Shown here piece by piece: positions 32,517 to 64,000 of a stretch of DNA of 64,000 bases. How positions within the stretch are numbered: position 1 is the stretch's first letter; each line of letters starts with the position of its first letter. The notes beneath the pieces were generated by a model. It was given only the letters and a program-made list of their open reading frames with translations, had not been told where the DNA came from and made no database searches. The stretch spans positions 3,322,001-3,386,000 of the forward strand of contig NZ_CP020918.1 of assembly GCF_003076455.1 (NCBI RefSeq), in the 5' to 3' direction. Both the position numbers and the translations under genes were made by a program. The stretch is from Flavobacterium faecale (lineage in GTDB: Bacteria > Bacteroidota > Bacteroidia > Flavobacteriales > Flavobacteriaceae).

Positions 32517-32527
32517 TTTATTTACTA

Positions 32528-36478: not shown

Positions 36479-36488
36479 GATCTTTGAA

Positions 36489-37502: not shown

Positions 37503-37533
37503 TTTCTAGCTAAATAATAGGTTTAATTCATTT

Positions 37534-37708: not shown

Positions 37709-37716
37709 TAAATATT

Positions 37717-38748: not shown

Positions 38749-38771
38749 CATCTAATTAAAATAAAATAACA

Positions 38772-44171: not shown

Positions 44172-44207
44172 AGATATTATATTTATTGGTTGTTATTTTT
44201 ATAAAAA

Positions 44208-44247
44208 AACCATTAGAAACGGCATATTTGGTTTATCTCTAATGGTT
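44208..44247 (-). terminator. Hairpin between AldA-like and RhaT-like genes
   Basis: AACCATTAG (44208-44216) and CTAATGGTT (44239-44247), followed on the minus strand by a T-run. It may end or attenuate the hydratase/AldA transcript before rhaT. Confidence 0.65.
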
Positions 44248-44266
44248 GTTGAGTTGTTTATCTATT

Positions 44267-45724: not shown

Positions 45725-45734
45725 TTTGATATAG

Positions 45735-46505
45735 TTATTTAAAATTAGGCGTTCTTTTTTCGATAAAGGCTTTAAAACCTTCTATTCCATCTGGCGTTTC
45801 ATATAATGGATTAACTAGAGCGGTTTCTAGTTGCAAAGCTTGTTGTAGATTCATCCCTTGACTTTCAAGAGTAAATTTCTTAATGCTTGCCATCGCTTCT
45901 CCTGCGCCAGAGGCTAAATTTTTACAATAGTCTAAAACATCCTTTCCGAAAGTATCCGCAGGATATAAGTGATTGATTAGTCCGAATTGATGTGCCGTTA
46001 CGGCATTAATCGTGTTTCCAGTTACGAGCAATTCCATTGCGCGACTTGCACCAATAAGAGTAATTAATCGAACTGTTCCTCCATTTCCAGGAATCAGTCC
46101 AAGTTTAATTTCTGGAAGACCAATAAGATAATTTCCTTGAGAGGCTAATCGAATGTCGCAAGCCATAGCCAATTCCAATCCACCGCCTAGAATATGACCT
46201 CTAAAAGCTGCAATGAAAATTTTTGTACTTGTGCTTATTAAATGACAAACACGACGAGCGGCCACAACCATTTCTTTATTTTGTTCTACAGTATTGCTGC
46301 CAAAAACTTTGATATCGGCACCTGCGCAAAAAAACTTTTCTGATGCACTGTTAATTAAGACCACTTTTGTAGTTGGATCTTGATTTGTATTTTCTATTGT
46401 ATTTCCTAAGGCTGTTAAGAAGTTTAACTCGTAGCTGTTTGCTGGTGGTTTATTTAAGGTGATAGTGATAAGCGCTCCGTTCTGTGAGCAGATAATTGAA
46501 TCCAT
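45735..46505 (-). CDS. Enoyl-CoA hydratase/isomerase family protein
   Basis: A 256-residue crotonase. The oxyanion-hole segments are [11 protein letters not shown] and [16 protein letters not shown], and both catalytic glutamates are present (GGLELA and [14 protein letters not shown]), so hydratase activity is likely. It is the first gene of an operon with the AldA-like dehydrogenase, an unusual pairing of CoA-ester chemistry and sugar-aldehyde oxidation. An operator-like sequence upstream resembles one in the iclR-rhaT intergenic region, which suggests it belongs with the CoA-transferase/MaoC cluster. Confidence 0.9.
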
Positions 46506-49399: not shown

Positions 49400-50245
49400 A
49401 TGTTAGGTATGAATCAAAGCAGCTATTACCGAAGGCCAAGTCTTGGCAAAAAAGGTAATAAGCCTAGTGTCTTTACTTATAATAAGTTCAAGGGAATGGT
49501 GAGTCAAGAAACTGTTATAGCATCGGTTAAAGAGATTTTAAGCCATGAGTTTATAGACTGCGGATACCGCTTAATGACTTCTTACTTACATCGAGATGGA
49601 TATAAGATTAATCACAAAAAGCTTTACCGAATTATGAAAGAAGAAGGCTTGTTAAAACTCGAAAATAGGATAAACAGGAGTGGTTCTGGGCGTAAGTTTG
49701 TAAAATATAGAAAGGTTATTACTGTTAGGCCGTTTCAGTGTATAGAAATGGATATTAAGATGGTTTGGATTCCTAGTGTAGGTAAAAATGCCTACTTACT
49801 ATCAATCATAGACGTTCATACCCGTAGAATTTTAAAAGATTACTTCTCTTTTTCAATAAAACAGAACAAAGTAATAACATTCCTTTCTGATTTATTTTTA
49901 GAATACCAATACCCTGAAAACGTTGTTATTAGAAGTGATAATGGTAGTCAATTTATTGCCAAAAGTGTTCGTGAATACCTAGGTATAATAGGTGTTCAGC
50001 AGGAATTTACACATGTAGCCACACCTGAAGAAAATGCACATATTGAAGCTTATCATGGAATCCTAAAAAAAGAAGTGTTCCAAAGGGTTGATTATAGAAC
50101 TTTTGGAGAAATTGAACAGATATTAAAAAGGTATGTGATTTTCTATAACAATAATAGGCTGCATGGGCTATTAGGACGTATTACACCAATGGAAAAATGG
50201 AACCAAGATAAAGATCTAATTTTATTGGAAAAATTAACCGCATAA
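49400..50245 (+). CDS. IS3-family transposase OrfB (DDE integrase core), copy 2
   Basis: The 281-residue catalytic part, identical to that of copy 1, with D, D and E in IEMDIKM, IRSDNGSQF and HIEAYHG. It is probably expressed mainly as an OrfAB fusion through the upstream slippage site. Confidence 0.93.
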   Translation: MLGMNQSSYYRRPSLGKKGNKPSVFTYNKFKGMVSQETVIASVKEILSHEFIDCGYRLMTSYLHRDGYKINHKKLYRIMKEEGLLKLENRINRSGSGRKFVKYRKVITVRPFQCIEMDIKMVWIPSVGKNAYLLSIIDVHTRRILKDYFSFSIKQNKVITFLSDLFLEYQYPENVVIRSDNGSQFIAKSVREYLGIIGVQQEFTHVATPEENAHIEAYHGILKKEVFQRVDYRTFGEIEQILKRYVIFYNNNRLHGLLGRITPMEKWNQDKDLILLEKLTA

Positions 50246-50300: not shown

Positions 50301-51071
50301 CTATCCCCCAATCAATTTATTAATCTCTCCCTGCGCTTCTTTAAGTGCTTCGATAATTTTTTCTCTTGAAATTTCATTATCTATACTAGATGAAAAGACA
50401 GAAACTGCTAAAACGGCATTCAAATCCGAATCATTCAAACCTATTGGAACGGCAAAATCGGTGATACCACTGGTGATATTACTTTCGGCAGAACGGTAAC
50501 CGTCTTTTTGAACTTGTAGAATCGATTCCTTGAATTCTTCCTGTTTTTTCTTGGTCCATTTACTATAATGTTCATCACGACTTAAAAAATCGTTTCGCTT
50601 GTCCTCTAAATAAATCGACAAAAATACCCTGCCCGAAGTAGTCAACGTTAGTGGAAAATGGGTTCCTTCTTCTATCGAAAGTGAAACCGCATTTGGACTT
50701 CGCATTTGGGCTATAATCAACAATTGGTCATTATTGATGATACTTAAATGACAAGACTGCCTGATTTTTTCGGATAAATTTTGCATCGGATAATGCGACA
50801 CTCGTTTCAACTCATCAAAAGGCGTGTGTCGGTGCGAAAGGCTATACATTTTTAAAGACAAACGATACTTTCCCGCATTCGAACCTCTTATTAAGTACCC
50901 TCTTTCTTCCAAGCAAACTAACATTCGGTAAATTTCGCTTGGCGTTTTGCTAATTCCTTGGGCAATTTCTGCTTGCGACAACGGAATCCCTTCAGAAGAT
51001 AAATATTCGAGTATATCTAAGCCTTTATCGAGTGCGGGAGCATTGTATTTTGTATTGTTTTCTTCAGCCAT
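50301..51071 (-). CDS. IclR-family transcriptional regulator
   Basis: A 256-residue regulator starting MAEENNTKYNAPALDKGLDIL. The N-terminal winged helix-turn-helix (about 15-75; LSQAEIAQGISKTPSEIYRML) is followed by an IclR effector domain (VSHYPMQNLSEKIRQSCHLSI; YRSAESNITSGITDFAVPIG; LAVSVFSSSI). The start at 51071 is the family-typical one; an in-frame extension upstream overlaps the operator region. It is divergent from the RhaT/CoA-transferase operon and presumably controls it in response to a pathway acid. Confidence 0.9.
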   Translation of the reverse strand: MAEENNTKYNAPALDKGLDILEYLSSEGIPLSQAEIAQGISKTPSEIYRMLVCLEERGYLIRGSNAGKYRLSLKMYSLSHRHTPFDELKRVSHYPMQNLSEKIRQSCHLSIINNDQLLIIAQMRSPNAVSLSIEEGTHFPLTLTTSGRVFLSIYLEDKRNDFLSRDEHYSKWTKKKQEEFKESILQVQKDGYRSAESNITSGITDFAVPIGLNDSDLNAVLAVSVFSSSIDNEISREKIIEALKEAQGEINKLIGG

Positions 51072-51122
51072 CTTTTGTGTTTTACGAGACAAATTTAATA
51101 AATTTAATCCGCTTCTTGTTTG

Positions 51123-51155
51123 TTTCATATATAAAATATACATTTGTATATGAAT
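51123..51155. promoter_or_regulatory. Putative IclR operator in the divergent iclR-rhaT promoter region
   Basis: Inverted repeat ATATACA-TT-TGTATAT (51136-51151), embedded in outer arms TTCATATA and TATATGAA. It lies between the two divergent starts (51071 and 51185) and resembles 46525-46557 in front of the hydratase operon. Confidence 0.5.
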
Positions 51156-51184
51156 CACAATAACTAACCAACCAAACGCAAATT

Positions 51185-52237
51185 ATGGCAAATCCTTTAT
51201 TAGGTACTTTTATCCACGGAGTTGGAGGTGTATCTGCTTCAACCTGTTATGTTCCCTATCAAAAAGTAAAAAAATGGTCTTGGGATACCTACTGGTTGTT
51301 TCAAGCCAGTTTCGCTTGGTTCATCTTTCCTTTCGTCATCGGATTTCTTACGGTTCCTGATTTATTAGGTGTTTTTGAAAACTCGGATACTACTATTTTA
51401 ATTAACGCTACCTTATTAGGAGCTGTTTATGGATTTGGCGGAATGTGTTTTGGTTTTGCCATTAAACACATTGGGTATTCGTTGACGTACACTATCTCTA
51501 TTGGGATTTCTGCCATTCTAGGAACCATTGTTCCCTTAATTATGCACGGTGAGTTTGTAGAAAAATACAACGCTGCTGGTGGAAGTACCATATTTATAGG
51601 AATGTTTTTGGCCTTAATAGGTATCGCACTTTGCGGTGTTGCTGGCTATAGAAAAGAAGCGGACTTGAAACGAAATGCGGTTGAAGGTGCTAATCTTCCT
51701 TCTTTCGATATGAAAAAAGGGTTGACCTTAACTATTATTGCGGGTGTTTTGTCGGCTGTTTTCGGAATCTCATTAGAAGTGGGTGCTCCCGTAGCCGAGT
51801 TGGCGGGGAAATACGGTGCTGGAAATTACGAAGGAAACGCAAACTTGATTCTTTCCACTTTTGGTGCTTTTGTAACCAATTTGATTTGGTTTCTAATCGC
51901 TGGGATCAAAAACAAAACTTTAAAAGAATTTGTAGATGTAAAAAGCATCGGTGCAAAAAATTACGGTATCAATGCCGGAATGTCCATTTTGAGTGGTGCA
52001 CTTTGGTACGGTCAATTTTTCTTTTATGGTATTGCACACGTACAAATGGGTGCTTACAAATTTGCGAGTTGGGTTATTCATATGTCCATGCTTATCTTCT
52101 TTAGCTATATCATCGGAATTGTTATGAAAGAATGGGTAGCAGTAAGCAAACGAACATATACCACATTACTATATGCTTTAATAATCTTAGTGGTTTCCTT
52201 TTTTGTAATGACTTACGGAAGCATGCAAGGAGAATAA
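51185..52237 (+). CDS. RhaT-like sugar permease (DMT superfamily), copy 2
   Basis: A 350-residue membrane protein with about ten helices and RhaT-family features (GTFIHGVGGVSASTCYVPYQKVKKWSWDTYWLFQA in parts; GAVYGFGGMCFGFAIKHIGYSLTYTIS; GALWYGQFFFYGIAHVQMGAYKFASWVIHMSM). It is the first gene of the IclR-controlled cluster and the only transporter in it, so it probably imports the substrate. The substrate may be a sugar or sugar acid; rhamnose itself is unproven. It differs clearly from the copy at 43140-44171. Confidence 0.87.
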   Translation: MANPLLGTFIHGVGGVSASTCYVPYQKVKKWSWDTYWLFQASFAWFIFPFVIGFLTVPDLLGVFENSDTTILINATLLGAVYGFGGMCFGFAIKHIGYSLTYTISIGISAILGTIVPLIMHGEFVEKYNAAGGSTIFIGMFLALIGIALCGVAGYRKEADLKRNAVEGANLPSFDMKKGLTLTIIAGVLSAVFGISLEVGAPVAELAGKYGAGNYEGNANLILSTFGAFVTNLIWFLIAGIKNKTLKEFVDVKSIGAKNYGINAGMSILSGALWYGQFFFYGIAHVQMGAYKFASWVIHMSMLIFFSYIIGIVMKEWVAVSKRTYTTLLYALIILVVSFFVMTYGSMQGE

Positions 52238-52277: not shown

Positions 52278-53429
52278 ATGGAATCACAACCAATCAAATT
52301 AAAAGGAATTACTTGGAATCACAGTAGAGGTTTTACCTCAATGGTCGCTACGGCACAACGTTTCTCAGAACTGAATCCGAATGTAGAAATTACATGGGAG
52401 AAAAGATCTTTGCAAGCTTTCGCCGATGAGCCTATCGACGAATTAGCAAAACGCTATGACTTATTGGTAATTGACCACCCTTGGGCAGGTTTTGCGGGTA
52501 AAACAAAGGTGATCTTACCGCTAGACGAGTATTTGCCAAAAGCGTTTATAGCTGATTTGGCCGAAAATACGGTGGGGCATTCTCATGTGAGTTACAGTTC
52601 AAACGGTCACCAATATGCCTTAGCGATTGATGCCGCTACTCCAGTGGCCTCTAGCCGTCCGGATATTTTGGAAGCTAAAGGTCTAAAATTACCGACCAAT
52701 TATGACGAACTTTTGGCTTTGGCAAAAAAAGGATTGGTGGTAATGCCAGGTATTCCGCAAGATACATTGATGAATTTCTATATGATGTGTTGCAACTTGG
52801 GCGAAGAAGTTTGTGTGTCCAAAGAACATGTTGTAAGCCAAGAAATTGGTATAAAAGCTTTGCAAATGTTACGTGCCTTAGCTGTAGAAATGGATCCAGC
52901 TATGTACGATTGGAATCCAATTAAAGTCTACGAAGCCATGACTTTGACAGACAACTATGCGTATTGTCCTTGGGCTTACGGATATTCGAATTATAGCCGT
53001 AACGGATATGCACGTAAATTGTTGCATTTTCATGACATGATCGAAATCAATGGCGTCGGTGCTATTTCGACTTTGGGAGGAACTGGATTGGCGGTTTCTG
53101 CACAATCAAAAGAAATTGAAACGGCAATGAAATACCTAGAATATGTTGGTTCAGAAGCAATTCAAAAAACGGTTTTCTTTGACGGTGGTGGACAACCAGG
53201 TCACAGAAAAGCATGGACAGATGAATATACAAACAGCATCACAGCCGATTATTTCAAGAACACATTACCTGGATTAGACAGAGCATTTTTACGTCCTAGA
53301 TACAACGGTCATATGTACTTTCAAGACAGAGCGGGTGCTCCAATCAGAAATTATTTGATGAACGGAGGCGATGAATTGGCTTTATTGCAACAACTAAATG
53401 AGTTGTATTTGAAATCATTAGAAATTTAG
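52278..53429 (+). CDS. Solute-binding-protein homologue without signal peptide, 1
   Basis: A 383-residue protein of the extracellular solute-binding family 1 (sugar ABC transporter) fold. It runs from KLKGITWNHSRGFTSMVATAQRF through YDLLVIDHPWAGFAG, LPTNYDELLALAKKG and ISTLGGTGLAVSAQSKEIETAMKYLEYV. It begins MESQPIKLKGITWN, with no signal peptide, lipobox or hydrophobic start, so it should stay in the cytoplasm. No ABC permease or ATPase lies in the window. It precedes the two CoA-transferase genes; a paralogue follows them. It may bind the pathway substrate or a CoA ester, or be an enzyme on a binding-protein scaffold. Confidence 0.82.
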   Translation: MESQPIKLKGITWNHSRGFTSMVATAQRFSELNPNVEITWEKRSLQAFADEPIDELAKRYDLLVIDHPWAGFAGKTKVILPLDEYLPKAFIADLAENTVGHSHVSYSSNGHQYALAIDAATPVASSRPDILEAKGLKLPTNYDELLALAKKGLVVMPGIPQDTLMNFYMMCCNLGEEVCVSKEHVVSQEIGIKALQMLRALAVEMDPAMYDWNPIKVYEAMTLTDNYAYCPWAYGYSNYSRNGYARKLLHFHDMIEINGVGAISTLGGTGLAVSAQSKEIETAMKYLEYVGSEAIQKTVFFDGGGQPGHRKAWTDEYTNSITADYFKNTLPGLDRAFLRPRYNGHMYFQDRAGAPIRNYLMNGGDELALLQQLNELYLKSLEI

Positions 53430-53433
53430 AAAA

Positions 53434-53520
53434 AGTTTAAAAGAGTTTAAAAGAGTTTAAAAGTTTAAAAATTGTTTTAAAGACTAATCGTTAGTACTTT
53501 AAACTTTAAACAAAAAAAAC
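53434..53520. repeat. AGTTTAAA-type repeats with hairpin
   Basis: Several AGTTTAAA units (AGTTTAAAAG and similar) are followed by a near-perfect hairpin TTTAAAG-ACTAA-TCG-TTAGT-ACTTTAAA. The same motif family stands at 25795-25914. The hairpin may dampen transcription between the first SBP gene and the CoA-transferases. Confidence 0.55.
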
Positions 53521-53537
53521 CTTAAACAATAAAGCAT

Positions 53538-54680
53538 ATGAAACCACTAGAAGGAATTGTAGTACTCGAATTTGCTCAATTTATGGCAGGCCCGTCTGCG
53601 GGATTGCGATTGGCAGATTTAGGGGCAAGAGTAATAAAAATAGAACGTCCGGTTCACGGAGAAGCTGGGAGACAAATTGCATTGAAAAATTTATTTTTGG
53701 ATGGTAGCAGTTTGGTTTTCCACACCGTTAACCGTAACAAAGAATCTTATGCAGCCGATTTGAAAAATCCTGAGGATTTGGAGTGCGTTCGACAATTAAT
53801 AGCCAAAGCCGATGTGATGACCCACAACTTCCGTCCGGGAGTGATGGAGAAAATCGGTTTGGATTATGAAAAAGTAAAAGCCATCAACCCAAAAATGATT
53901 TACGCCACCGTAACCGGTTATGGTACAGAAGGTGCTTGGGTAAAAAAACCAGGACAAGATTTATTGGTACAATCCATGTCGGGTTTTGTCAACTTAACTG
54001 GTAACAAAAACGACGATCCTGTTCCTGTGGGAGCGGCGGTTTCAGATATTATTACAGGTTCGCACTTAGCACAAGGTATTTTGGCTTCAATTTATAAAAG
54101 AACCAAAACAAACCAAGGTGCTTGGGTTGAAGTAAGTTTGCTAGAATCAACTCTTGATTTACAGTTTGAAGTCTTGACAACCTACCTTAATGATGGTAAT
54201 CAAAAACCAATAAGAGCTGAAAAAGGGAATGCAAATCCGTATTTAGGCGCTCCATATGGTGTTTATAAAACCAAAGATAGCTACCTTTCTTTGGCTATGG
54301 GAAATATTTTGAATATGGGAAAAGTGTTAGGCTGTGCACCTATCGCATCGTATATCGACTCAGATTCATGGTTTACAAAAAAAGATGAAATCATGGCTAT
54401 ATTGAGTGATTTTCTTATTCATAAAGAGACACAAGAATGGTTGGATATTTTAGAACCTGCTGGAATTTGGGCTTCTGCGGTTTTCAATTATGATGATTTA
54501 TTGAACCACGAAGGGTATAAAGTTTTACAAATGGATCAAAAGTTGAAATTACTTTCTGGTGAAGAAGTGCATACGTTGCGTTGTCCTATTCGAATGGATG
54601 ACGAAAGGATTTTTGCTCCAAAACCTGCACCAAGAGTCGGACAACACACTGCTGACATTAGAAAAGAATTTAATTTATAA
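53538..54680 (+). CDS. Class III CoA-transferase (CaiB/BaiF family), 1
   Basis: A 380-residue enzyme that moves CoA between carboxylic acids through an aspartyl-CoA thioester. The N-terminal signature is [31 protein letters not shown] in parts; GKPGQDLL-like ([15 protein letters not shown]) follows, and the catalytic Asp is D170 in [15 protein letters not shown]. The C-terminal [24 protein letters not shown] is also typical. It is 17 bp upstream of a paralogue that aligns along its whole length. Substrates are unknown; an acid made from the imported compound is likely. Confidence 0.92.
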
Positions 54681-54697
54681 CTGTAATACGAAGAATA

Positions 54698-55837
54698 ATG
54701 AAACCATTACAAGATATATTAATCGTTGATTTGAGTCAGTTTTTATCGGCTCCTTCAGCAACTTTGCGATTAGCCGATTTGGGCGCACGTGTCATTAAAG
54801 TCGAACGTCCAGAAACAGGTGATATTTGCCGTCAATTATATGTTTCGAATGTGATATTAAACGGAGAATCCACTGTTTTTAGAGCTATTAATCGAAATAA
54901 AGAAAGTTTTCAAGCCGATTTAAAGGTCGAAAAAGATAAAGCACAAGTTTTAAAATTAATCGAAAAAGCCGATGTTTTGGTGCACAATTTCCGTCCAGGA
55001 GTGATTGAGCGCTTGGGATTTGATTATGAAACCATCAAAAAAATAAATCCATCTATTGTCTATGGTGATATTTCTGGTTATGGTGATGAGGGTCCGTGGA
55101 AAAGTAAGCCAGGACAAGATTTGCTCGTACAATCCTTATCTGGTGTGACTTGGTTGAACGGGAAAATATCCGATGGACCTGTACCAGTTGGTTTGGCAAT
55201 TGTAGATATCTTGGCAGGAGCCCATTTGGCACAAGGTATTTTGGCTGGATTAATCAAAAAAGCAAAAACTGGCGAAGGTTCAAAAGTATCCATTAGCATG
55301 TTGGAGTCTATTCTTGATTTTCAATTTGAGTCGATTACTACTTTTTACCATGATGGTGGAGCGCCTACTATTCGTCCAGAAAGTAATAGCGCACATGCCT
55401 ATTTAGGAGCACCTTATGGCGTGTACCAAACTGCATCGGGCTATATGTCACTTGCTATGGGAGCTATTCCGTTTGTTGGTGAGTTGATTGGTTGCGGTGC
55501 TTTGTCCGCTTATCCTGAAAGAGAAAGCTGGTTTACAGAACGTAACGAAATCAAGAAAATATTGGCCAATCACCTATTAACAAACACCACAGAACATTGG
55601 CTGAGTTTGTTGGAACCTGCTGATATTTGGTGTGCAAAAATCATGAACTGGGACGAACTTTTTGCTCACGACGGATTCAAGATTTTAGAAATGATTCAGA
55701 AAGTAAAAATGGGAGATGGTTTTGAATACGAAACCACGCGTTGCCCAATAAAAATTGACGGACAATACATGAAATCTAGCTTAGGTTCGCCTGCATTAGG
55801 AGAACACACAGAGGCTATTATCAAAGAAATGTTGTAA
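54698..55837 (+). CDS. Class III CoA-transferase (CaiB/BaiF family), 2
   Basis: A 379-residue paralogue of the preceding protein, with the catalytic Asp at the same number (D170 in [14 protein letters not shown]) and the same motifs ([42 protein letters not shown]). Both copies keep the active site, so the pair may form a heteromer or use different acids. The next gene starts 1 bp after its stop. Confidence 0.92.
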
Positions 55838-55838
55838 A

Positions 55839-57074
55839 ATGAGTAAACCAAAATTTAAAATAGCCGTACGTAAATTTGATGCTTTCGAAACTTCCATAGC
55901 AAAAATATGGGACGCTTTTTGCGCCGAAACAGGATGTGATTTTGAGTTGGAAGCAACCGCCTTTGATTTGCACCCTTTGTATGATACTATTTTAAAAAAC
56001 AAAGGTTTAGCTAATGGTGATTGGGATGTATCTTTAATCAATACCGACTGGATTACAGAAGCTTTTGCAACGAATGCCGTCGAAGATTTAACACCTTATA
56101 TCGCTGCAAATTCACCCGCTGATTTCCCTGAAGGTTGGTCGGAGTCATTGCTGTACAAACAACGATTTGAAGGCAAAACCGTTGGATTACCTTTTCATGA
56201 TGGGCCTGAATGTTTGATTTATCGAAAGGATTTATTCGACTCAATGGAAGAGCAAATTACTTTTTATGGTTTACATGGAAAACAATTGGAAGTTCCCAAA
56301 ACTTGGGATGACTTGATGGAAGTGGCCGAATTTTTTAATCGACCGGATCAAGGTTTGTACGGAACCACATTTGCCGCTTATCCTGACGGACACAATACCG
56401 TTTTTGATTTCTGCCTACAGTTATGGACCCGTGGAGGCGATTTATTCGATTTGAATAAAAAAATTAAAATCAATACCCAAATAGCTATCGAAGGTATGGA
56501 GTTTTACCGTTCAGCATTGAAAAATACCAAAGCTATTCACCCCGATTCTCGTGAATTTGATTCGGTTAAGTCCGGAATGGCTTTCGCCAACGGAAACTTG
56601 GCGATGATGGTCAATTGGTTTGGTTTTGCTTCTTTTGGTGAAGTATATCCCGATTCGAAAGTGAAAGGAAAAATCGATGTGACGAACGTTCCTGCAGGCC
56701 CGAATGGCGAAGGAGTTTCTCTCAACGCTTATTGGATGTACGTAATTGGAAAAGGGAGTACCAATAAAGACCTTGCCTACGATTTTATACAATTTGCTGT
56801 AAATGCAAAAAACGATAAACTACTGACTTTGGAAGGTGGAATTGGTTGTAGAAAATCAACTTGGCACGACAAAGAAGTAAACGAACTGGTTCCCTATTAT
56901 TATAAATTGGAAGAATTACATAAAAATACCCGCTCCTTACCCCGCAAAAGCAACTGGTCTGAAATTGCAGATGTAATTGACCAAATTGTTGTGGAAGTTA
57001 TCAATAGCGACAAAAGCATTGCATTGATTTTGGAGGAAGCGCAAGGGAAGATTGATTTGATTGAAGAAGTTTGA
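55839..57074 (+). CDS. Solute-binding-protein homologue without signal peptide, 2
   Basis: A 411-residue family 1 solute-binding-like protein. It begins MSKPKFKIAVRKFDAFETSI, again with no secretion signal. Fold markers include DWDVSLINTDWITEAFATNAV-like substrate-cleft segments, PKTWDDLMEVAEFFNRPDQGLYG, FDFCLQLWTRGGDLFD and VKSGMAFANGNLAMMVNWFGF. It starts 1 bp after the second CoA-transferase, so the two are coupled. The order SBP-CaiB-CaiB-SBP suggests each binding-like protein serves one CoA-transferase. A cytoplasmic location is inferred. Confidence 0.85.
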   Translation: MSKPKFKIAVRKFDAFETSIAKIWDAFCAETGCDFELEATAFDLHPLYDTILKNKGLANGDWDVSLINTDWITEAFATNAVEDLTPYIAANSPADFPEGWSESLLYKQRFEGKTVGLPFHDGPECLIYRKDLFDSMEEQITFYGLHGKQLEVPKTWDDLMEVAEFFNRPDQGLYGTTFAAYPDGHNTVFDFCLQLWTRGGDLFDLNKKIKINTQIAIEGMEFYRSALKNTKAIHPDSREFDSVKSGMAFANGNLAMMVNWFGFASFGEVYPDSKVKGKIDVTNVPAGPNGEGVSLNAYWMYVIGKGSTNKDLAYDFIQFAVNAKNDKLLTLEGGIGCRKSTWHDKEVNELVPYYYKLEELHKNTRSLPRKSNWSEIADVIDQIVVEVINSDKSIALILEEAQGKIDLIEEV

Positions 57075-57366
57075 TTAACGATTGATGATTAACGATTGCT
57101 GATTTTTGATTTGTTGGAACGAGGAAAATGATTAACGATTTTTGATTGCTGATTTGTTGAAACGGAATAAAGATTAAGGATTTTTGAATTAAGGTATTAG
57201 GATTTTTAAAGTGATTAACGATTGGTAATTAACGATTTTTGATTGCTGATTTGTTAGAACGGAATAAAAATTAAGGATTTTTGAATTAAGGAATTAGGAT
57301 TTTTAAAATGATTAATGATTGGTGATTAACGATTTGTGATTGCTGATTTGTTGGAATCGTAAAAGT
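57073..57366. repeat. Imperfect tandem repeats of about 83-97 bp
   Basis: Units beginning GATTAA(C/T)GATT start at about 57073, 57130, 57213 and 57310 and share TTGATTGCTGATTTGTT and AAGGATTTTTGAATTAAGG. No coding potential is seen. Together with 57367-57609 this is the gap between the second SBP and the Gfo/Idh gene. Confidence 0.7.
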
Positions 57367-57471
57367 GATTTAAGATTTATTAATTTGATTTTTGAATTTG
57401 ACTTTTGAACTTTGACTTTTGAAATTGAATTTTGAATTTTGATTCTCGCGTGAGGGATTGAAGTGGAGCTC

Positions 57472-57575
57472 TTTTTTTATCAATTGCCTCGGGTTTAAAC
57501 CCGATAAAATTGATAAAAAAAAGCGGGAACGAAAAGCCCGACCCGTCCCGAAGCGTCGGGATACGGAGGGGCACG
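57472..57575. repeat. Hairpin element with flavobacterial-type intergenic repeat
   Basis: A large stem (TTTTTTATCAATT with AATTGATAAAAAA, 57473-57520) encloses the palindrome CGGGTTTAAACCCG. It is followed by AACGAAAAGCCCG (57528-57540, also found reversed at 8329-8341) and a second hairpin TCCCGAAGCGTCGGGA. Locally GC-rich. The hairpin could end transcription before the Gfo/Idh gene, which may then have its own promoter. Confidence 0.6.
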
Positions 57576-57609
57576 CACAAATAAAAAATACTATTAAAAA
57601 CAACAGATA

Positions 57610-58680
57610 ATGGATATTAACTACAAACCAACATTACCCATTGAGAATCGTCCGATTTACATTATTGGAGCGGGCGGAATTGTGCGTGATGCGCATTTGC
57701 CTGCTTACAAAAGTGTAGGTTTTACGATTGCGGGAATCACCAATAGAACTCGCGAAAGAGCAGAGGAAGTGGCAAAGCAATTTGCGATTCCGACTGTCTA
57801 TGACACGGTTGCCGATATGGTGAAAGATGCACCTTCGTACGCTATTTATGACTTGACTCTTATGCCGAATCAGTTTGTGCAAACATTGGAGCAATTACCT
57901 GACGAAGCAGCAGTTTTGATTCAGAAACCCATGGGAGATGATTTTGAGCAAACTTTGGCGATTTTGCAAGTTTGTAGAAGAAAAAAACTAAAGGCAGCCG
58001 TTAATTGTCAGATGCGATTTGCGCCTTACATTATGGCTGCAAAAGATATAATTGACCGAGGATTGATTGGCGAATTGTACGATTTTGAAGTCCGTTTGAC
58101 GACCTACACACCTTGGGAATATTTCCCGAATGTGGTGAATCACCCGAGATTGGAAATTCAGCAACACAGCATTCATTATATTGATTTGATTCGCTCGTTT
58201 TTAGGAAACCCAAAGAAAGTGTATTCGAAAACTTTGAAAAATCCTGGTAAAACAATGTCGTCTACTCGTACGACGACGATCATGGATTATAATGATGCCA
58301 TGCGTGCGATTATTAACACCAATCATGATCATAATTTTGGCGAGAAAAACCAAGAAAGTTTTGTGAAATGGGAAGGTACCAAAGGAGCTATCAAAGCTCG
58401 AATAGGGTTGCTACTAGACTACCCAAATGGCAAACCCGATTTGTTTGAATACTGCATTGTAACCGAAGGACAAGAACCAAAATGGATTGAAGTGCCGTTG
58501 AAAGGCTCTTGGTTTCCCGATGCATTTGTGGGAACAATGGCGTCTTTAATGCGATTTGTAGAAGGTTCTACCACCGAATTACCCACTAGCGTGGAAGATG
58601 TGGTGCACTCGATGGCGATTGTAGAAGCGGCCTATGAATCCAATGACAACGGAGGTATTTTACCCAATTATTCTATTTAA
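57610..58680 (+). CDS. Gfo/Idh/MocA-family oxidoreductase
   Basis: A 356-residue NAD(P)-dependent sugar oxidoreductase-like protein. The Rossmann motif is IIGAGGIVRDAHLPAY, and the EKP-like motif appears as IQKPMGDDFEQT; the catalytic His region is IQQHSIHYIDLIRSF. Members oxidise or reduce hydroxyls of sugars, inositols and their acids. It is followed by the MaoC gene after 11 bp and shares direction with the CoA-transferase cluster, so it is a candidate for the redox step. Confidence 0.88.
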   Translation: MDINYKPTLPIENRPIYIIGAGGIVRDAHLPAYKSVGFTIAGITNRTRERAEEVAKQFAIPTVYDTVADMVKDAPSYAIYDLTLMPNQFVQTLEQLPDEAAVLIQKPMGDDFEQTLAILQVCRRKKLKAAVNCQMRFAPYIMAAKDIIDRGLIGELYDFEVRLTTYTPWEYFPNVVNHPRLEIQQHSIHYIDLIRSFLGNPKKVYSKTLKNPGKTMSSTRTTTIMDYNDAMRAIINTNHDHNFGEKNQESFVKWEGTKGAIKARIGLLLDYPNGKPDLFEYCIVTEGQEPKWIEVPLKGSWFPDAFVGTMASLMRFVEGSTTELPTSVEDVVHSMAIVEAAYESNDNGGILPNYSI

Positions 58681-58691
58681 AATAAAGACTT

Positions 58692-59135
58692 ATGCATATA
58701 CTATCACGATTTTACGAAGATTACGAACTAGGAAGCAAAAGAGAAACTTTTGGAAGAACCATAACCGAAACCGATTTTGTAGTTCACGCGGGACATACGG
58801 GGGATTTTTTTCCACACCATATGGATGCTGAATGGTGTAAAACACAACCCTTCAAGCAAAGAATCGCCCACGGAACTTTGACCTTTAGCGTGGGAATCGG
58901 AATGACGGCTACCGAAATTAATCCAGAGGCTTTTTCTAAAGGCTACGACCGTTTGCGTTTTGTAAAACCAGTTTATATTGGTGATACCATAAACGTGGTG
59001 ATTACCATTAGCGAAAAGAAAGATTCCAACAAACCCGAATTTGGACAGGTAAACGAACATGTCGAAATTTTCAATCAAAATGGTGATTTAGTGCTTGTGT
59101 GCGACCATATCTTATTAGCAAAAAAGAAAATATAA
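58692..59135 (+). CDS. MaoC-like (R)-specific enoyl-CoA hydratase family protein
   Basis: This 147-residue hot-dog-fold protein has the hydratase-2 motif with catalytic Asp and His in [18 protein letters not shown] and the following [31 protein letters not shown] is the usual third conserved block. It would hydrate an enoyl-CoA or dehydrate a 3-hydroxyacyl-CoA. Together with two CoA-transferases this points to a pathway using CoA thioesters. It is the last gene of the cluster before the glycoside hydrolase genes. Confidence 0.9.
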
Positions 59136-59221: not shown

Positions 59222-60787
59222 ATGAAAAATACTGTTTTAGGATTAGTGACTATTGCATTGGTATCCTGCAATGCGCAACAAAAAACAACCCAAAACAAAG
59301 TCACAAATAAAAAAATCGAATACAAAGCCGATTGGAAATCATTGGAACAACACAAAACACCAGAATGGTTCTTGGATGCTAAGTTCGGAATCTATTGCCA
59401 CTGGGGACCGTACTCGGTACCAGAATATAAAAACGAATGGTACTCGCACTGGATGTACATAAACAAGGACAACCCAGAAGCTAAAAATGGGAAAGAAAGT
59501 GAGTACTATACGCACCATGTGAATACTTATGGGCCATTGGATAAATTTGGTTACAAAGATTTCATTTCGATGTTTAAGGCTGAAAAGTTTGATGCTGCTG
59601 CTTGGGCAGATTTATTTGAAAAATCAGGCGCAAAATTCTCAGGACCTGTTTCTGAACATGCCGATGGTTTTGCCATGTGGGATAGCGATTTGACCAAATG
59701 GGATGCCAAAGAAATGGGACCGAAACGTGATATCATGGGCGAGTTGTCTAAAGAAATCAGAAAAAGAGGGATGAAATTTATCGCTACTTTTCACCGTCAA
59801 TGGTTGTATGCTTGGTACCCAACTTGGGATGAAACTACCGATGCATCCGATCCAAGATATGCTGGTTTGTATGGTCCAAAAGTTAAAAAAGGTGATTTCC
59901 TTTTCCCAGATAATCCAAATAGAAAAAAACTAGGAGCGGCCTCTTATTACCCATTGGCTGACGAACAATTTAACAAAGAATGGTTGGCTCGTTTGAAGGA
60001 GATTACCAATAAGTACAACCCAGATATGGTTTGGTTTGATAATAAAATGGACATTATTGGCGAAGATTACCGCAAAGAATTCCTAGAGTATTATTACAAC
60101 CATGCCGAGAAAAAGAATCAGGAAGTAGTGTCAACTTATAAATTTCATGATTTTGCCGAAGGCACTGCTGTTCTAGATTTGGAACGAGCAAGAATGAGTG
60201 AGAAAAAAGATTTTCCGTGGTTGACAGATGATTCTATTGACTGGAAATCATGGTCACACATTTCTGATCCAAACTACAAATCGACCAATCGTTTACTTGA
60301 TTTCTTGATTGATGTAGTGAGTAAAAATGGAGCGGTTTTATTGAATATCACACCAAAAGCAAATGGTGAAATTCCAGAGCCAGTCAAAGAACGTTTGTTA
60401 CAAATGGGAGATTGGTTGAAAACCAATGGAGAAGCCATTTACGGAACACGTACTTTTGATATCTACGGAGAAGGCGATGCAGAAGTAAAAGAAGGCCATT
60501 TGAGTGAAGACAAAAATGCTGATAATACGGCCAAAGATATTCGTTTTACTAGAAAAGGAGAGGTTGTTTATGCCACGGTTCTAGATTGGCCAGCAGAGAA
60601 TCAATTGGTGATCCACTCGTTCAAGAAAGGAAGTCCGTATTTGACCAAAGGAATCGAATCGATTGAATTTTTGGCAAATAAGAAAAAAATGAAATTCACG
60701 GTGGAGAATGACGGATTACATATTCAACTCCCAAAAGAAAAAGTAGGTGATTATGCTTTTGCATTCAAGATTACTCCTAAAAAGTAA
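59222..60787 (+). CDS. GH29 alpha-L-fucosidase-family lipoprotein
   Basis: A 521-residue retaining glycosidase. A lipoprotein signal (MKNTVLGLVTIALVSC, Cys16) should anchor it to a membrane. The GH29 catalytic domain (about 35-400) shows FGIYCHWGPYSVPEYKNEWYSHWM, SEHADGFAMWDSDLTKWDA and the nucleophile Asp in NPDMVWFDNKMD. The C-terminal part resembles a beta-sandwich. GH29 enzymes release alpha-L-fucose, and some release alpha-L-galactose. Together with the sulfatase, the GH16 enzyme and the FucP operon, the substrate may be a fucose- or L-galactose-containing algal glycan. Confidence 0.92.
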   Translation: MKNTVLGLVTIALVSCNAQQKTTQNKVTNKKIEYKADWKSLEQHKTPEWFLDAKFGIYCHWGPYSVPEYKNEWYSHWMYINKDNPEAKNGKESEYYTHHVNTYGPLDKFGYKDFISMFKAEKFDAAAWADLFEKSGAKFSGPVSEHADGFAMWDSDLTKWDAKEMGPKRDIMGELSKEIRKRGMKFIATFHRQWLYAWYPTWDETTDASDPRYAGLYGPKVKKGDFLFPDNPNRKKLGAASYYPLADEQFNKEWLARLKEITNKYNPDMVWFDNKMDIIGEDYRKEFLEYYYNHAEKKNQEVVSTYKFHDFAEGTAVLDLERARMSEKKDFPWLTDDSIDWKSWSHISDPNYKSTNRLLDFLIDVVSKNGAVLLNITPKANGEIPEPVKERLLQMGDWLKTNGEAIYGTRTFDIYGEGDAEVKEGHLSEDKNADNTAKDIRFTRKGEVVYATVLDWPAENQLVIHSFKKGSPYLTKGIESIEFLANKKKMKFTVENDGLHIQLPKEKVGDYAFAFKITPKK

Positions 60788-60873: not shown

Positions 60874-62460
60874 ATGAAAAAGACCGGATTATCAATCACA
60901 TTGGCAGTACTCCTTTTTTGTCAATTGGGTATTAGTCAACGTTCAAGCAAAAACCAGCCCAACATCATTTACATCATGTCTGATGATCATACCGCTCAAG
61001 CAATTGGTGCTTACGGGAGTCGTTTGGCAAAATTAAATCCAACGCCTACCATCGATAAGTTGGCAGCCGAGGGAATGTTATTCGAAAATGCTTTTGTAAC
61101 CAATTCCATTTGCACGCCTAGTCGCGCATGTATTATCACAGGTCAGTATTCACAAACCAATGGTGTTTTGGACTTGGATGGGGAATTGGACCCCGCCAAA
61201 GAATACTTGCCAATGGAGATGAAAAAATTGGGTTACACAACAGCTATGATTGGAAAATGGCATTTAAAAAATGAACCTTCAGCCTTTGATTACTACAAAG
61301 TTTTGCATTCGCAAGGAAAGTATTTCAACCCTACTTTTTTCGAAAAAGGAAAAGGAGAATGGATGAAAAACGAAGTGAAATCAGTAGGCCATTCCACCGA
61401 TGTGATTACCGATATTACGTTGGATTACTTGAAAAAAAGAGATAAATCAAAACCCTTTTTTATCATGCACCACTACAAAGCACCGCATGATATGTTTGAG
61501 TTCGCTCCACGATATGCCGATTATTTAAAAGACGTAGAAATTCCAGAACCAGCGAGTTTGTATTTTCAACCCAATTTTGGATCTGAGGCTACGGTTGGAA
61601 AAAACGGAAAATTAGGTGCGGTAATCGGAAGCTCCATTTCAGACCGACATTTATACCGAAACTATGTAAATATGCTTTTGAAGGATACTGTTTCTGGAAC
61701 AATCGCTACTCATTTGGCTTACCAAGAATACTTAAAAAGATATTTAAGATGTGTTAAAGGTGTTGATGATAATTTGGCTCGATTGTTCGATTATCTAAAA
61801 AAAGAAGGTCTTTGGGAAAATACCGTAATTGTATATACTGGCGACCAAGGAATGATGCTTGGTGAACATGATTTAATTGACAAAAGATGGATGTATGACG
61901 AATCGATGCGCATGCCGTTTATTGTACATTATCCAAAAATGGTTAAAGCAGGTTCCAAAACCGATCTACTCATCAACAATACCGACTTTGCTCCAACGCT
62001 AATCGAATTGGCTAAAGGTAAAAAACCTTCGTACATGCAAGGGTTTAGCTTTATAAATACCTTGGAAGGAAAAGCAGAAAAAAACTGGAGAACAGCAACT
62101 TATTATCGGTATTGGATGCATAACATTCACCACTGGGTACCGGCACATTTTGGTGTTCGAAGCAAGCAATATAAGTTGATCTTTTTCTACGCCAAACATT
62201 ATTTACCAGAAGCCGAATGGAATAAGTTTTATTGGAATAAAGAAATGCGTATTTATGGCTATAACACGCCTGTAGCTTGGGAATTTTATGATTTAAAAAA
62301 TGACCCAGAAGAAATGAACAACCATTACAAAGACCCCAAATACAAAGATATTATTGCTTCGTTAAAAGAGGAAATTTTAAAACAACGCAAAGAATTAAAT
62401 GAAACAGATGCCAATTATCCTGAAATTCAAAAAGTGATTGATAAGCACTGGAATGATTAA
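60874..62460 (+). CDS. Secreted S1-family sulfatase
   Basis: A 528-residue exported protein. After a signal peptide (MKKTGLSITLAVLLFCQLGIS) comes the metal-binding NIIYIMSDDHTAQAIGAYG and the sulfatase motif CTPSR with Cys80, the residue converted to formylglycine by a maturase. Further conserved parts are MIGKWHLKN, HHYKAPHDMFEF and YTGDQGMMLGEHDLIDKRWMYDES. It removes sulfate esters from glycans in the periplasm or outside. Next to GH29 and GH16 genes it fits an algal galactan or fucan role. A maturase gene is not in the window. Confidence 0.94.
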   Translation: MKKTGLSITLAVLLFCQLGISQRSSKNQPNIIYIMSDDHTAQAIGAYGSRLAKLNPTPTIDKLAAEGMLFENAFVTNSICTPSRACIITGQYSQTNGVLDLDGELDPAKEYLPMEMKKLGYTTAMIGKWHLKNEPSAFDYYKVLHSQGKYFNPTFFEKGKGEWMKNEVKSVGHSTDVITDITLDYLKKRDKSKPFFIMHHYKAPHDMFEFAPRYADYLKDVEIPEPASLYFQPNFGSEATVGKNGKLGAVIGSSISDRHLYRNYVNMLLKDTVSGTIATHLAYQEYLKRYLRCVKGVDDNLARLFDYLKKEGLWENTVIVYTGDQGMMLGEHDLIDKRWMYDESMRMPFIVHYPKMVKAGSKTDLLINNTDFAPTLIELAKGKKPSYMQGFSFINTLEGKAEKNWRTATYYRYWMHNIHHWVPAHFGVRSKQYKLIFFYAKHYLPEAEWNKFYWNKEMRIYGYNTPVAWEFYDLKNDPEEMNNHYKDPKYKDIIASLKEEILKQRKELNETDANYPEIQKVIDKHWND

Positions 62461-62737: not shown

Positions 62738-63859
62738 TTAATTCTTCATAATCTTAATTTTTTCCGAATCATCCTCTCCATTTAAAATTAAAAAATAGAT
62801 TCCAGATTTTAAAGATGATACATTTACATTGTACTCTGCTGATCCGACTGCAATTTTACCTTGCGCTACTGATCTACCTAAAGGATCTATAATACTATAG
62901 GAATTATAATCGTTTTCTGATTTTAAGGTTACCTGCAATAAATTCGAAACTGGATTTGGTGACACAGAAGTTTTGTAATTATAAGTTTCTGATTTAAGCT
63001 TAGACTCGACTTCTTTTCCTGTAATATTAGCCAATGTATATGTATTTATCCAATCTACATACATCGTACTTTGAGCCTCATTTGCCAAATCGCTTCTTAC
63101 TGCAAGGCCACCAAGATAATCAAATGGACCTGTCCATAAATCCCAAATAATATTCTGGGCTAATGTAAAAACACCAGTGGTTGTCAAACTACCCGCTGGC
63201 GCTCCATTAATGTAAAATTGTACATGTTTAGAATCTTTCCAATAGCAGCCAAGAACTTGATAAGTATTCCATTTTACTCCCTTTGCAGGATTACCAGCAG
63301 GGAGGTTTCTATTGTCAAAATTACCAGCATTTCTTTCAGTAACCCCATTTTTAACTATGAAATATTGTGAATACATTGTGTAAGGTCTGTATGTCTGACT
63401 AGTGATTGAAGGTTTGGGATTATTCTCGCAAATATCAATTTCATCACGGTTATTTGCATCCCCATTATTTAACCAATAAGTAGAATAAGCAGAAATATTA
63501 GCCGCTTTAATTCGGCATTCAGTGTACATAGGAAACCCTACTTTTGCTTTAGATTGTACTCGAGAAGACTGAAACCACGCTCCTGAGTTACTTTGTCCAT
63601 TATCTGTCGCTTTGATCCATAAATTCCCACCTGAGACACCCGAATTGTTATTATTCATAAGAGTCGGTGTTCCTGCGTAATTCCAAATAGATTGTTCCCA
63701 TTTCGAAGTATCAAAGGATCCGTTAAAATCATCTGAAAGATATGTAGCTTTTACCCACTTTTTTCCAGAAGGGGCGGCTGGTTGTGCAACAATAGTACTA
63801 ACAGTAAAGAATACTGTCAACAGTCCTAAACTGATTTTTTGTAATTTTTTTAATTTCAT
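62738..63859 (-). CDS. GH16 glycoside hydrolase (agarase/porphyranase-like) with T9SS sorting domain
   Basis: A 373-residue secreted enzyme from the ATG at 63859 (MKLKKLQKISLGLLTVFF), with signal cleavage likely after IVAQ. The GH16 jelly-roll (about 30-290) carries the retaining motif E140-I-D142-I-C-E145 in NNRDEIDICEN and a preceding STYWLNNGD. The absence of the WPxxGEIDIME form typical of laminarinases points to an agarase/porphyranase/carrageenase-like branch. The C-terminal 75 residues (SVSPNPVSNLLQVTL to SGIYFLILNGEDDSEKIKIMKN) are a type A T9SS sorting domain. It would cut a galactan backbone outside the cell. An in-frame longer start (63895) is less likely. Confidence 0.88.
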   Translation of the reverse strand: MKLKKLQKISLGLLTVFFTVSTIVAQPAAPSGKKWVKATYLSDDFNGSFDTSKWEQSIWNYAGTPTLMNNNNSGVSGGNLWIKATDNGQSNSGAWFQSSRVQSKAKVGFPMYTECRIKAANISAYSTYWLNNGDANNRDEIDICENNPKPSITSQTYRPYTMYSQYFIVKNGVTERNAGNFDNRNLPAGNPAKGVKWNTYQVLGCYWKDSKHVQFYINGAPAGSLTTTGVFTLAQNIIWDLWTGPFDYLGGLAVRSDLANEAQSTMYVDWINTYTLANITGKEVESKLKSETYNYKTSVSPNPVSNLLQVTLKSENDYNSYSIIDPLGRSVAQGKIAVGSAEYNVNVSSLKSGIYFLILNGEDDSEKIKIMKN

Positions 63860-64000
63860 AATTTGGTTTTTTAAGGTTAATTGAAACATTGTCATTTCTG
63901 TAGCAAAATCAGTAGTGTTTTATTTTAAACATTCTTAATTTACACTAGGTCATATGACATTTGTTTGCGATGCTAAATTATACTTTATGATAATTTAAAA

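Follow-up and report, generated by a model that had tools for sequence, protein, structure and literature searches.

In a window of 64,000 nucleotides of Flavobacterium faecale DNA, we found a gene cluster in which homologues of solute-binding proteins (SBPs) accompany class III CoA-transferases (CaiB) and a CoA hydratase, an arrangement conserved across Bacteroidota and Pseudomonadota. We give an even chance to the reading that this cluster encodes a CoA-thioester route for an L-galacto-type sugar acid, running beside the enolase-type routes. The gene content, its conservation, the catalytic residues, the predicted SBP1 fold, and the genomic company were established here; from these we infer the reactions, a CoA-transferase dimer, and the role of SBP1, and the substrate is a guess from the neighbouring genes. 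ORF and Pfam calls gave the same gene order and families as an earlier note on this DNA (Table 1). The functional neighbourhood extends to position 63895 and takes in 43140-46505 (module b); SBP2 and Gfo/Idh of module a are split by a repeat-rich gap of 535 bp.

Table 1 Features of the window, with the basis of each assignment.
Feature	Position	Strand	Basis
Separate putative L-galactose-type route	30126-37502	-	Pfam + NCBIfam
RhaT-like permease, module b	43140-44171	-	RhaT 70 bits
Aldehyde dehydrogenase, module b	44267-45724	-	Aldedh 503 bits
Crotonase, module b	45735-46505	-	ECH_1 179 bits
IclR-family regulator, divergent	50301-51158	-	Pfam IclR_C 77 bits, HTH_IclR 46 bits
RhaT-like sugar/H+ permease, module a	51185-52237	+	Pfam RhaT 176 bits
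SBP1 (SBP_bac_1), sugar-binding-protein fold, no export signal, paired with CaiB in gene order	52278-53429	+	Pfam
CaiB1, class III CoA-transferase, Asp170	53538-54680	+	CoA_transf_3 324 bits
CaiB2, class III CoA-transferase, Asp170, CaiB1 paralogue	54698-55837	+	CoA_transf_3 315 bits
SBP2 (SBP_bac_1/8), signal-less, SBP-like, tied to Gfo/Idh	55839-57074	+	SBP_bac_1 99 bits
AT-rich tandem-repeat spacer	57075-57609	.	TRF: 97-bp unit, 2.3 copies, 57131-57353, and smaller arrays
Gfo/Idh/MocA oxidoreductase, proposed sugar 1-dehydrogenase	57610-58680	+	GFO_IDH_MocA 42 bits
MaoC-like hydratase, proposed sugar-acyl-CoA dehydratase	58692-59135	+	MaoC 79 bits
GH29, exo-alpha-L-galactosidase-like	59222-60787	+	Pfam Alpha_L_fucos; PDB matches
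Sulfatase, exo-L-galactose-6-sulfatase-like	60874-62460	+	Best PDB match 7lha, exo-L-galactose-6-sulfatase, 689 bits
Beta-agarase C-like enzyme, Por sorting tail	62738-63895	-	Best PDB match 6hy3, beta-agarase C, 292 bits

Conserved synteny of SBP and CaiB had been named in advance as a check. In a sample of 108 loci from Bacteroidota (sets of 80 and 10) and Pseudomonadota (18), SBP1 directly adjoined CaiB in 103 (77/80, 10/10, and 16/18), so that the order is not confined to one strain; in 67 of the 96 pairs measured the two genes lie no more than 20 nt apart, and in 24 they overlap by 4 nt. Many loci also have an IclR-like gene close to the SBP1-CaiB pair. A CoA-transferase and a CoA hydratase (MaoC or crotonase) were encoded together in 95/108 fetched stretches (70/80, 10/10, and 15/18), and some of the 13 stretches without a hydratase end early. 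The gene order had also been taken to suggest two matched SBP/CoA-transferase pairs. This suggestion was not borne out: in 26/80 loci, those of a crotonase/aldehyde dehydrogenase type, the stretch lacks both SBP2 and Gfo/Idh, CaiB1 and CaiB2 are fused into a single frame in 7/12 Hymenobacter loci, and SBP2 adjoins Gfo/Idh in 49/51 SBP2 loci of one locus set. The core is SBP1, CaiB, and the CoA hydratase, MaoC or crotonase, and SBP2 belongs with Gfo/Idh.

The frames of SBP1 and SBP2 allow no start earlier than 52278 and 55839, respectively. In a simple export test based on hydropathy only (N-terminal, 11-residue window), the maximum was 1.64 or less in 89 SBP1 homologues and 1.35 or less in 58 SBP2 homologues, even with the longest possible frame; exported SBPs of seven Pseudomonadota loci gave 1.88-2.45. 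By start codons and hydropathy, homologues included, no export signal was found in either protein, which agrees with the secretion signal being missing, as first claimed, and both look cytoplasmic from their sequences. They are not close paralogues (20% identity, E 0.006), and the SBP fold was indicated by Pfam, a predicted model, and structural matches. The model of SBP1 is a predicted complete sugar-binding fold in which conserved residues, R17, K42, R43, R339, and R341 among them, sit in strand-end loops (p = 1e-6). The model suggests a conserved cationic ligand site, with which SBP1 would bind or present the sugar acid. We know of no precedent for an SBP-fold partner of CaiB.

The CoA_transf_3 domain spans residues 4-371, the full length, of CaiB1 and CaiB2, which are 51% identical. 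The catalytic Asp reported at position 170 was seen in both, in all homologues counted (82/82 for CaiB1 and 81/81 for CaiB2, with seven fused frames excluded), and in 22/22 CaiBs of the Pseudomonadota loci. The Asp/His dyad of MaoC (D38/H43) was kept in 52/52 homologues scoring at least 200 bits and the two Glu of the module-b crotonase (E111 and E132) in 36/36, both of which we take to be active-site residues; K106/P107 of Gfo/Idh occurred in 69/69 homologues. Against the L-carnitine CoA-transferase model, CaiB1 and CaiB2 scored 91 and 85 bits, far under the cut-off of 413, and were therefore rejected as orthologues of that enzyme. Taken together, three points of the earlier reading stand: the SBPs look cytoplasmic, the order is conserved, and the CoA enzymes CaiB and MaoC keep their catalytic residues. 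The matched pairs do not stand.

The flanking enzymes resemble those of an agar/porphyran setting, as judged from their closest matches. In the PDB, the GH29 enzyme scored highest against 7snk (366 bits; an alpha-L-fucosidase by its deposition) and 7ljj (355 bits; exo-alpha-L-galactosidase), with 4ni3 (about 254 bits) as the next fucosidase, and the single Pfam match of the beta-agarase C-like enzyme was Por_Secre_tail. The earlier note made no use of the downstream GH29-like and sulfatase-like genes.

Orthologues of the module-b crotonase adjoin SBP1-CaiB in other loci, and MaoC with Gfo/Idh replaces crotonase with aldehyde dehydrogenase in other loci. The module-b aldehyde dehydrogenase matched those from module-b loci at 60-99.8%, the one beside this genome's cycloisomerase at 44%, and one beside a DauB-like gene at 32%; the module-b permease matched that beside the cycloisomerase at 43% and the module-a permease at 22%. 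Among the genes compared, both are closest to those adjoining the cycloisomerase, and in the paralogous set SBP1, CaiB1, CaiB2, and crotonase occupy the place that the cycloisomerase has in L108. Within the module, no 3,6-anhydro-L-galactonate (AHGA) cycloisomerase was found; it is located elsewhere in the genome, and CaiB and crotonase are present instead. This cycloisomerase occurred in 29/29 crotonase-group genomes searched (in 28 of which crotonase or aldehyde dehydrogenase lies within the fetched locus), in 10/12 further marine module-a genomes (absent in two), in 0/7 FucP-type genomes, and in 2/294 of a class sample. The genes at 30126-37502 (FucP, aldo-keto reductase, fuconolactonase-like, mannitol-dehydrogenase-like, altronate-dehydratase-like, and Zn-ADH) form what we infer to be an ordinary L-galactonate route. 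Since this route lies in the window and the cycloisomerase in every crotonase-group genome searched, the CoA module accompanies the standard routes.

An enolase-superfamily gene lay in the same stretch in 7/18 Pseudomonadota loci (weak in L138), and, counting against a companion route, in just 1/80 and 0/10 Bacteroidota stretches; an FAA hydrolase was present in 3/18 (weak in L127) and RhaM in 5/18 Pseudomonadota stretches. Zn-ADH and a KduD-like SDR stood alongside Gfo/Idh in 13 loci, and the same pair in the L110 cycloisomerase cluster matched its nearest counterpart in those loci at 87-88% identity.

In the proposed CoA-thioester route, an L-galacto-configured sugar would enter via a RhaT- or FucP-type permease and be oxidized at C1 by Gfo/Idh for the pyranose (module a) or by aldehyde dehydrogenase for the 3,6-anhydro sugar (module b). 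Within the cytoplasm, SBP1 would bind the anionic acid and deliver it to, or hold it for, CaiB1 and CaiB2, which, probably as a heterodimer, would transfer CoA to it. The seven single-frame CaiB1-CaiB2 fusions are an indirect hint of such a dimer. MaoC (a) or crotonase (b) would then remove the oxygen substituent at C3 (hydroxyl or 3,6-ether) by beta-elimination, which would be eased because the substrate is a CoA thioester, and CaiB would pass the CoA on to the next acid. The 3-deoxy product would join the normal 2-keto-3-deoxy-galactonate or -fuconate pathway. The most speculative part, put forward tentatively and at somewhat less than an even chance, is that the acid carries a substituent at O2, e.g. 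2-O-methyl, and is unsuited to enolase-type enzymes; such substitution would account for the module being retained alongside the cycloisomerase or the L-galactonate route. No gene proving a methyl group was found in the loci.

A rival explanation, somewhat unlikely in our view, is that module a offers a second way to degrade L-galactose itself (L-fucose in other species), the aldonate being dehydrated as a CoA ester and not by an enolase-type dehydratase, with no methyl group involved. The GH29 and sulfatase genes downstream, which resemble L-galactose-releasing enzymes, would suit it, as would L107, where a near-complete deoxyhexose route has no enolase-type gene in the stretch. Furthermore, an L-galactonate dehydrogenase orthologue (60% identity) is missing in 5/21 non-FucP genomes with the module-a Gfo/Idh, so that in these genomes plain L-galactose could be degraded through module a. 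However, an ordinary L-galactonate-type route is present in the same window, 16/21 module-a genomes have this route as well, versus 7/21 genomes without module a (Fisher p 0.012), and module b beside the cycloisomerase is left unexplained.

An extension of the CoA-thioester route, which we consider distinctly unlikely, would make SBP1 an obligatory, perhaps catalytic, part of a CoA-dependent system that demethylates 2-O-methylated L-galacto acids with neither oxygenase nor cobalamin. Its substrates would be 2-O-methyl-3,6-anhydro-L-galactonate (agar), 2-O-methyl-L-galactonate, and 2-O-methyl-L-fuconate (plant rhamnogalacturonan-II); beta-elimination on the CoA ester would give a 2-methoxy-2-enoate, and hydrolysis of this would yield methanol and the 2-keto-3-deoxy acid. 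It is quite improbable, on the other side, that SBP1 and SBP2 are cytosolic sensors or buffers sequestering a reactive sugar acid or lactone, with the CoA enzymes independent of them. The predicted intact fold and conserved ligand site of SBP1 are consistent with such a role, and a fuconolactonase-like gene occupies the usual place of SBP2 in L106 and L107. The adjacency to CaiB and the many 4-nt overlaps nevertheless suggest a fixed partner, and replacement of a lactonase by SBP2 is weakened because 12/15 lactonase loci also have an SBP2-profile match (seven of the cytosolic kind and five of the exported ABC kind).

Family names, and nothing else, point to degradation of a hydroxycinnamate-type aromatic acid, which classically takes a CoA-transferase, a crotonase (hydratase/lyase), and an aldehyde dehydrogenase. 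We regard this as highly improbable, given the sugar permeases, the agar/porphyran setting, the exchange of crotonase and aldehyde dehydrogenase for MaoC and Gfo/Idh, and the module-b aldehyde dehydrogenase, which is closest, among those compared, to the cycloisomerase-linked one and has PRK10090 as its best NCBIfam model.

No ABC permease was found among the window genes examined, in line with the earlier note, and the genome gave one BPD_transp_1 match. No ORF with the ABC-ATPase motif was found in the Bacteroidota loci scanned, and the same motif does recover ATPases in another scan. ABC genes near homologues, which would count against the note, do occur in several Pseudomonadota loci, where genuine importers adjoin the core, each with its own separate exported SBP. 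A degenerate ABC importer whose SBPs have lost their signals, a reading that the Pfam label of extracellular SBP would favour, is already contradicted and has next to no probability, as the examined relatives are signal-less too, conservation is strong, and the genome has that one BPD_transp_1 permease.

If true, the CoA-thioester sugar-acid route would add a new branch to carbohydrate catabolism, present in both Bacteroidota and Pseudomonadota, and would offer a candidate fate for the modified (e.g. methylated) sugars that occur in agar, porphyran, and pectin. Sugar acids are usually dehydrated by enolase-superfamily or IlvD/UxaA-type enzymes. In carnitine metabolism, a CaiB-type transferase activates a hydroxy acid, a hydratase (CaiD, a crotonase) dehydrates the CoA ester, and the CoA is recycled. 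Our locus shares this set of class III CoA-transferase and CoA hydratase, but it stands in a sugar-acid setting with sugar permeases, has two CaiB paralogues and an SBP-fold partner, and carries MaoC, not crotonase, in module a. With the 3,6-anhydro-L-galactose pathway of Vibrio sp. EJY3 (AHG dehydrogenase and AHGA cycloisomerase) it shares paralogues of the aldehyde dehydrogenase and the DMT-type permease, the polysaccharide setting, and presumably the product pool, whereas CaiB1, CaiB2, crotonase, and SBP1 match the cycloisomerase step and the same genomes carry both sets. The oxidative L-fucose/L-galactose pathways consist of a dehydrogenase, a lactonase, and an enolase-type dehydratase or LgoD/UxaB/UxaA; recurrent neighbours of our core include dehydrogenases, lactonases, permeases, and, for the downstream steps, SDR, ADH, and FAA-hydrolase types, and CoA activation is, to our knowledge, no part of those pathways. 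The source names of the SBPs include 'ABC transporter substrate-binding protein'; unlike the SBPs of ABC importers (MalE, TMBP, and SmoF; 15-19% identity), they have no export signal and no ABC partner and are linked to a CoA-transferase, the SBP fold apparently being employed in the cytoplasm. MqnA and THI5 are SBP-fold enzymes and provide a precedent for cytosolic catalysis on this fold; the demethylation reading, if true, would add an SBP-fold protein recruited to CoA-transferase chemistry.

ORF calls and Pfam matches across the window reproduced the gene order proposed in the earlier note, in which two solute-binding-protein-like products (SBP1 and SBP2) accompany two class III CoA-transferases (CaiB1 and CaiB2), and the catalytic Asp170 was present in both CaiB proteins. 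The claim that neither SBP carries an export signal also held, as no earlier start codon is available in either frame and each protein runs straight into the mature fold. The nearest named relative of SBP1 was that of Flavobacterium ovatum (98%), and no TctC-type SBP was found in a search of the own genome. SBP2 together with a Gfo/Idh oxidoreductase and MaoC is termed module a here, and a permease, an aldehyde dehydrogenase (ALDH), and a crotonase module b. Module b is split from the SBP1-CaiB1-CaiB2 core in this strain by, among others, an IS3-type element; in other genomes, orthologues of its ALDH and crotonase adjoin the core. The IS3-type transposase occurs in two copies with equal Pfam scores. 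Imperfect inverted repeats of 47 nt, common to both copies, bracket each of them, and the second copy sits in the interval from module b to the IclR gene. In this strain SBP2 is separated from Gfo/Idh by a gap filled with AT-rich tandem repeats (a 97-bp unit and others).

Table. Positions of the features discussed (in the window unless stated otherwise).
Feature	Positions or loci	Strand	Basis
SBP1	52278-53429		
SBP2	55839-57074		
Module b: RhaT-like permease, aldehyde dehydrogenase, crotonase	43140-46505	-	Pfam/NCBIfam
IS3-type transposase, first copy	148-993	-	Pfam
IS3-type transposase, second copy	49400-50245	+	Pfam
AT-rich tandem repeats	57072-57444		
FucP, AKR, lactonase, mannitol-DH-like, UxaA-like, Zn-ADH cluster	30126-43064		
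Probable ordinary L-galactose route within that cluster	30126-37502		
DauB-like cycloisomerase cluster (L089 / L109)	4266000-4282000 of the own genome		
Fused CaiB1-CaiB2 frames, Hymenobacter	L061, L064, L065, L069, L075, L079, L082		

The core was retained well beyond this strain. A profile scan of genome contigs gave 581 confirmed places, of which the best 80 were kept, a choice biased to close relatives; ten further loci came from other genomes sharing the genus or the class, and in Pseudomonadota SBP1 was found in 18 of 398 genomes (22 places), 18 of these places from 16 genomes being analysed. One locus (L097), a copy of the L047 region, was excluded from the counts, and a broken match in genome G031 was left out. 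SBP1 had a CaiB gene as its immediate neighbour, in the same orientation, in 77 of the best 80 of 581 loci, 10/10 further loci, and 16/18 Pseudomonadota loci, the exceptions being L035 and L046 (CaiB downstream at 529-547 nt), L047, L127, and L139. The intergenic gap was 20 nt or less in 67 of 96 SBP1-CaiB pairs, with a 4-nt overlap in 24. The SBP1-CaiB system is real and widespread. Among the best 80 of 581, 44 loci carried module a, 26 module b, 8 both, and 2 neither. DUF6786 proteins (L034:14523-15722 and relatives) recur near module-b loci (6 loci).

Two CaiB genes, or a fused one, were present in 79 of the best 80 of 581 loci and 10/10 further loci, but in only 4/18 Pseudomonadota stretches. 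CaiB1 and CaiB2 formed a single open frame of 792-835 aa in 7 of the 12 Hymenobacter loci among the best 80 of 581, which argues that the two proteins may act as a heterodimer. The earlier note had read the nested A-B-B'-A' layout as two matched SBP/CoA-transferase pairs. This reading fails because CaiB1 and CaiB2 are paralogous to each other (51%), no such close relationship joins SBP1 to SBP2 (20%, E 0.006), and SBP2 goes with Gfo/Idh. Loci L106 and L107 had suggested SBP2 as a substitute for a lactonase, an idea that was weakened: 12 of 15 lactonase-bearing loci also matched the SBP2 profile, 5 of these 12 matches being exported ABC-type SBPs.

Catalytic residues were kept throughout: Asp170 of the CaiB proteins in 82/82 and 81/81 homologues and in 22/22 from Pseudomonadota, Asp38/His43 of MaoC in 52/52, Glu111/Glu132 of the crotonase in 36/36, and Lys106-Pro107 of Gfo/Idh in 69/69. 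From these residues, the CoA enzymes look active. Hydratases bearing the MaoC or crotonase residues are suited to dehydrating or hydrating a CoA ester. The bit-score minima for the residue counts were 200 (SBP1), 400 (SBP2), 140 (Gfo/Idh), 200 (MaoC), and 150 (crotonase), so that a second, divergent MaoC-like protein was not counted. This protein lies in the cluster in L016, L029, L107, and L126, and also in L015, L024, and L030, at some loci between CaiB1 and CaiB2; might it perform a second hydratase step?

MaoC, where the earlier note ended, is followed by genes for a GH29 enzyme and a sulfatase, and then by one for an agarase-like enzyme on the opposite strand. The top PDB match of the GH29 enzyme was 7snk (366 bits; deposited as alpha-L-fucosidase), with the exo-alpha-L-galactosidase 7ljj at 355 bits; among solved structures, the sulfatase came nearest to 7lha, an exo-L-galactose-6-sulfatase (689 bits), and the agarase-like enzyme to 6hy3, beta-agarase C (292 bits). 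These predicted activities point to agar or porphyran as the setting, with L-galactose as a sugar that would be set free.

Module b was considered as a replacement of the 3,6-anhydro-L-galactonate cycloisomerase. This was dropped, since an orthologue is present in the own genome (633 bits to 5xd7) and in 29/29 searched genomes of the crotonase group, 28 of which have crotonase or ALDH inside the fetched locus (that of G088 has neither; L043 was left out of the count). The cycloisomerase search took in 50 of the 80 loci. The cycloisomerase was also present in 10/12 further module-a genomes labelled marine ('marine' and 'soil' being taken from organism names), and in 2/294 genomes of a class sample that was not habitat-matched. 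It was absent from the FucP-type genomes (Pedobacter, Hymenobacter, Segetibacter, and kin; 0/7) and from the six class-sample genomes with SBP1, whose loci are of the Gfo/Idh-MaoC kind. Because the cycloisomerase co-occurs in this way, module b goes with agar and accompanies the enzyme rather than replacing it.

In the own-genome cycloisomerase cluster (L108), a DMT permease is found with GH2, ALDH, and a protein of GH43 type, which was taken for GH117. Among the genes compared, the module-b ALDH and permease were nearest to their counterparts there (44% and 43%, versus 32% and 25% to the neighbours of a DauB-like gene), so that module b represents a paralogous copy of this plain set, with SBP1, CaiB1, CaiB2, and the crotonase occupying the cycloisomerase's place. 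The DauB-like cycloisomerase (494 bits to 5olc), found with ALDH and a RhaT-like permease, probably belongs to a carrageenan-type sugar route, that of the D-enantiomer. We take 6j75 to be an AHG dehydrogenase. Zobellia ZGAL_4655-4659 were dropped as a candidate module b, as ZGAL_4657-4669 form the plain L-AHG cluster containing GH117 (PMC5613140).

The FucP cluster of the window, which adjoins a hybrid two-component regulator of 1430 aa and a regulator of LacI type, includes what is probably an ordinary L-galactose route. Its Zn-ADH (at least 60% identity) occurred together with the module-a Gfo/Idh in 16/21 genomes and was present in 7/21 genomes without module a, although the Fisher p of 0.012 overstates certainty, related genomes not being independent; the FucP-type genomes G101-G107, with Gfo/Idh and a 48-54% Zn-ADH match, were left out of this comparison. 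An enolase-superfamily gene lay in the same stretch in 7/18 Pseudomonadota loci (one weak), RhaM in 5/18, and FAA hydrolase in 3/18 (one weak); among Bacteroidota, enolase-superfamily genes were seen in 1 of the best 80 of 581 stretches and 0/10 further ones. The CoA module thus seems to supplement a standard route and to serve a variant of that route's sugar.

Enolase-type enzymes use the free 2-hydroxyl and reach the 2-keto product via an enol. A sugar acid blocked at O2 would defeat them, and thioester activation of the alpha hydrogen would be the obvious alternative. 2-O-Methyl-3,6-anhydro-L-galactose, which occurs in agars, and 2-O-methyl-L-fucose of rhamnogalacturonan-II (RG-II) would fit such a substrate. 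Module-a loci of Pedobacter and Hymenobacter contain enzymes of GH78, GH106, and GH2, along with a protein that aligns to positions 1-362 of NF049877 (a glucuronidase/arabinofuranosidase model), a set that we take as a link to RG-II. A cytochrome P450 was found near the core in seven loci (L010, L015, L017, L022, L024, L057, and L081), mostly with ferredoxin reductase, Zn-ADH, and esterase. 6-O-Methyl-galactose is demethylated by a P450, and the P450 and ferredoxin reductase genes resemble those for this demethylation in porphyran degraders. None of these neighbours is proof that the substrate is methylated. It may equally be L-galactonate or L-fuconate in plain form, above all in the five genomes with module a but without an L-galactonate dehydrogenase orthologue.

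In the route that we propose, the sugar would be oxidised at C1 by Gfo/Idh or ALDH, and CoA would be moved onto the acid, presented by SBP1, by CaiB1/CaiB2. MaoC or the crotonase would then perform beta-elimination on the CoA ester, CaiB would recycle CoA, and the product would enter a 2-keto-3-deoxy acid route. In 13 loci Gfo/Idh occurs with Zn-ADH and a KduD-like SDR, and the corresponding pair of a cycloisomerase cluster shares 87-88% identity with its best match among them. A search of open-licence literature turned up nothing on sugar-acid chemistry by an SBP with CaiB. What is surprising is the cytosolic SBP partner; MqnA and THI5 are SBP-fold enzymes. The enzyme logic varies known chemistry: the proposed route works like carnitine dehydration by CaiB/CaiD, although CaiB1 and CaiB2 score far below the model cut-off for L-carnitine CoA-transferase and are not its orthologues.
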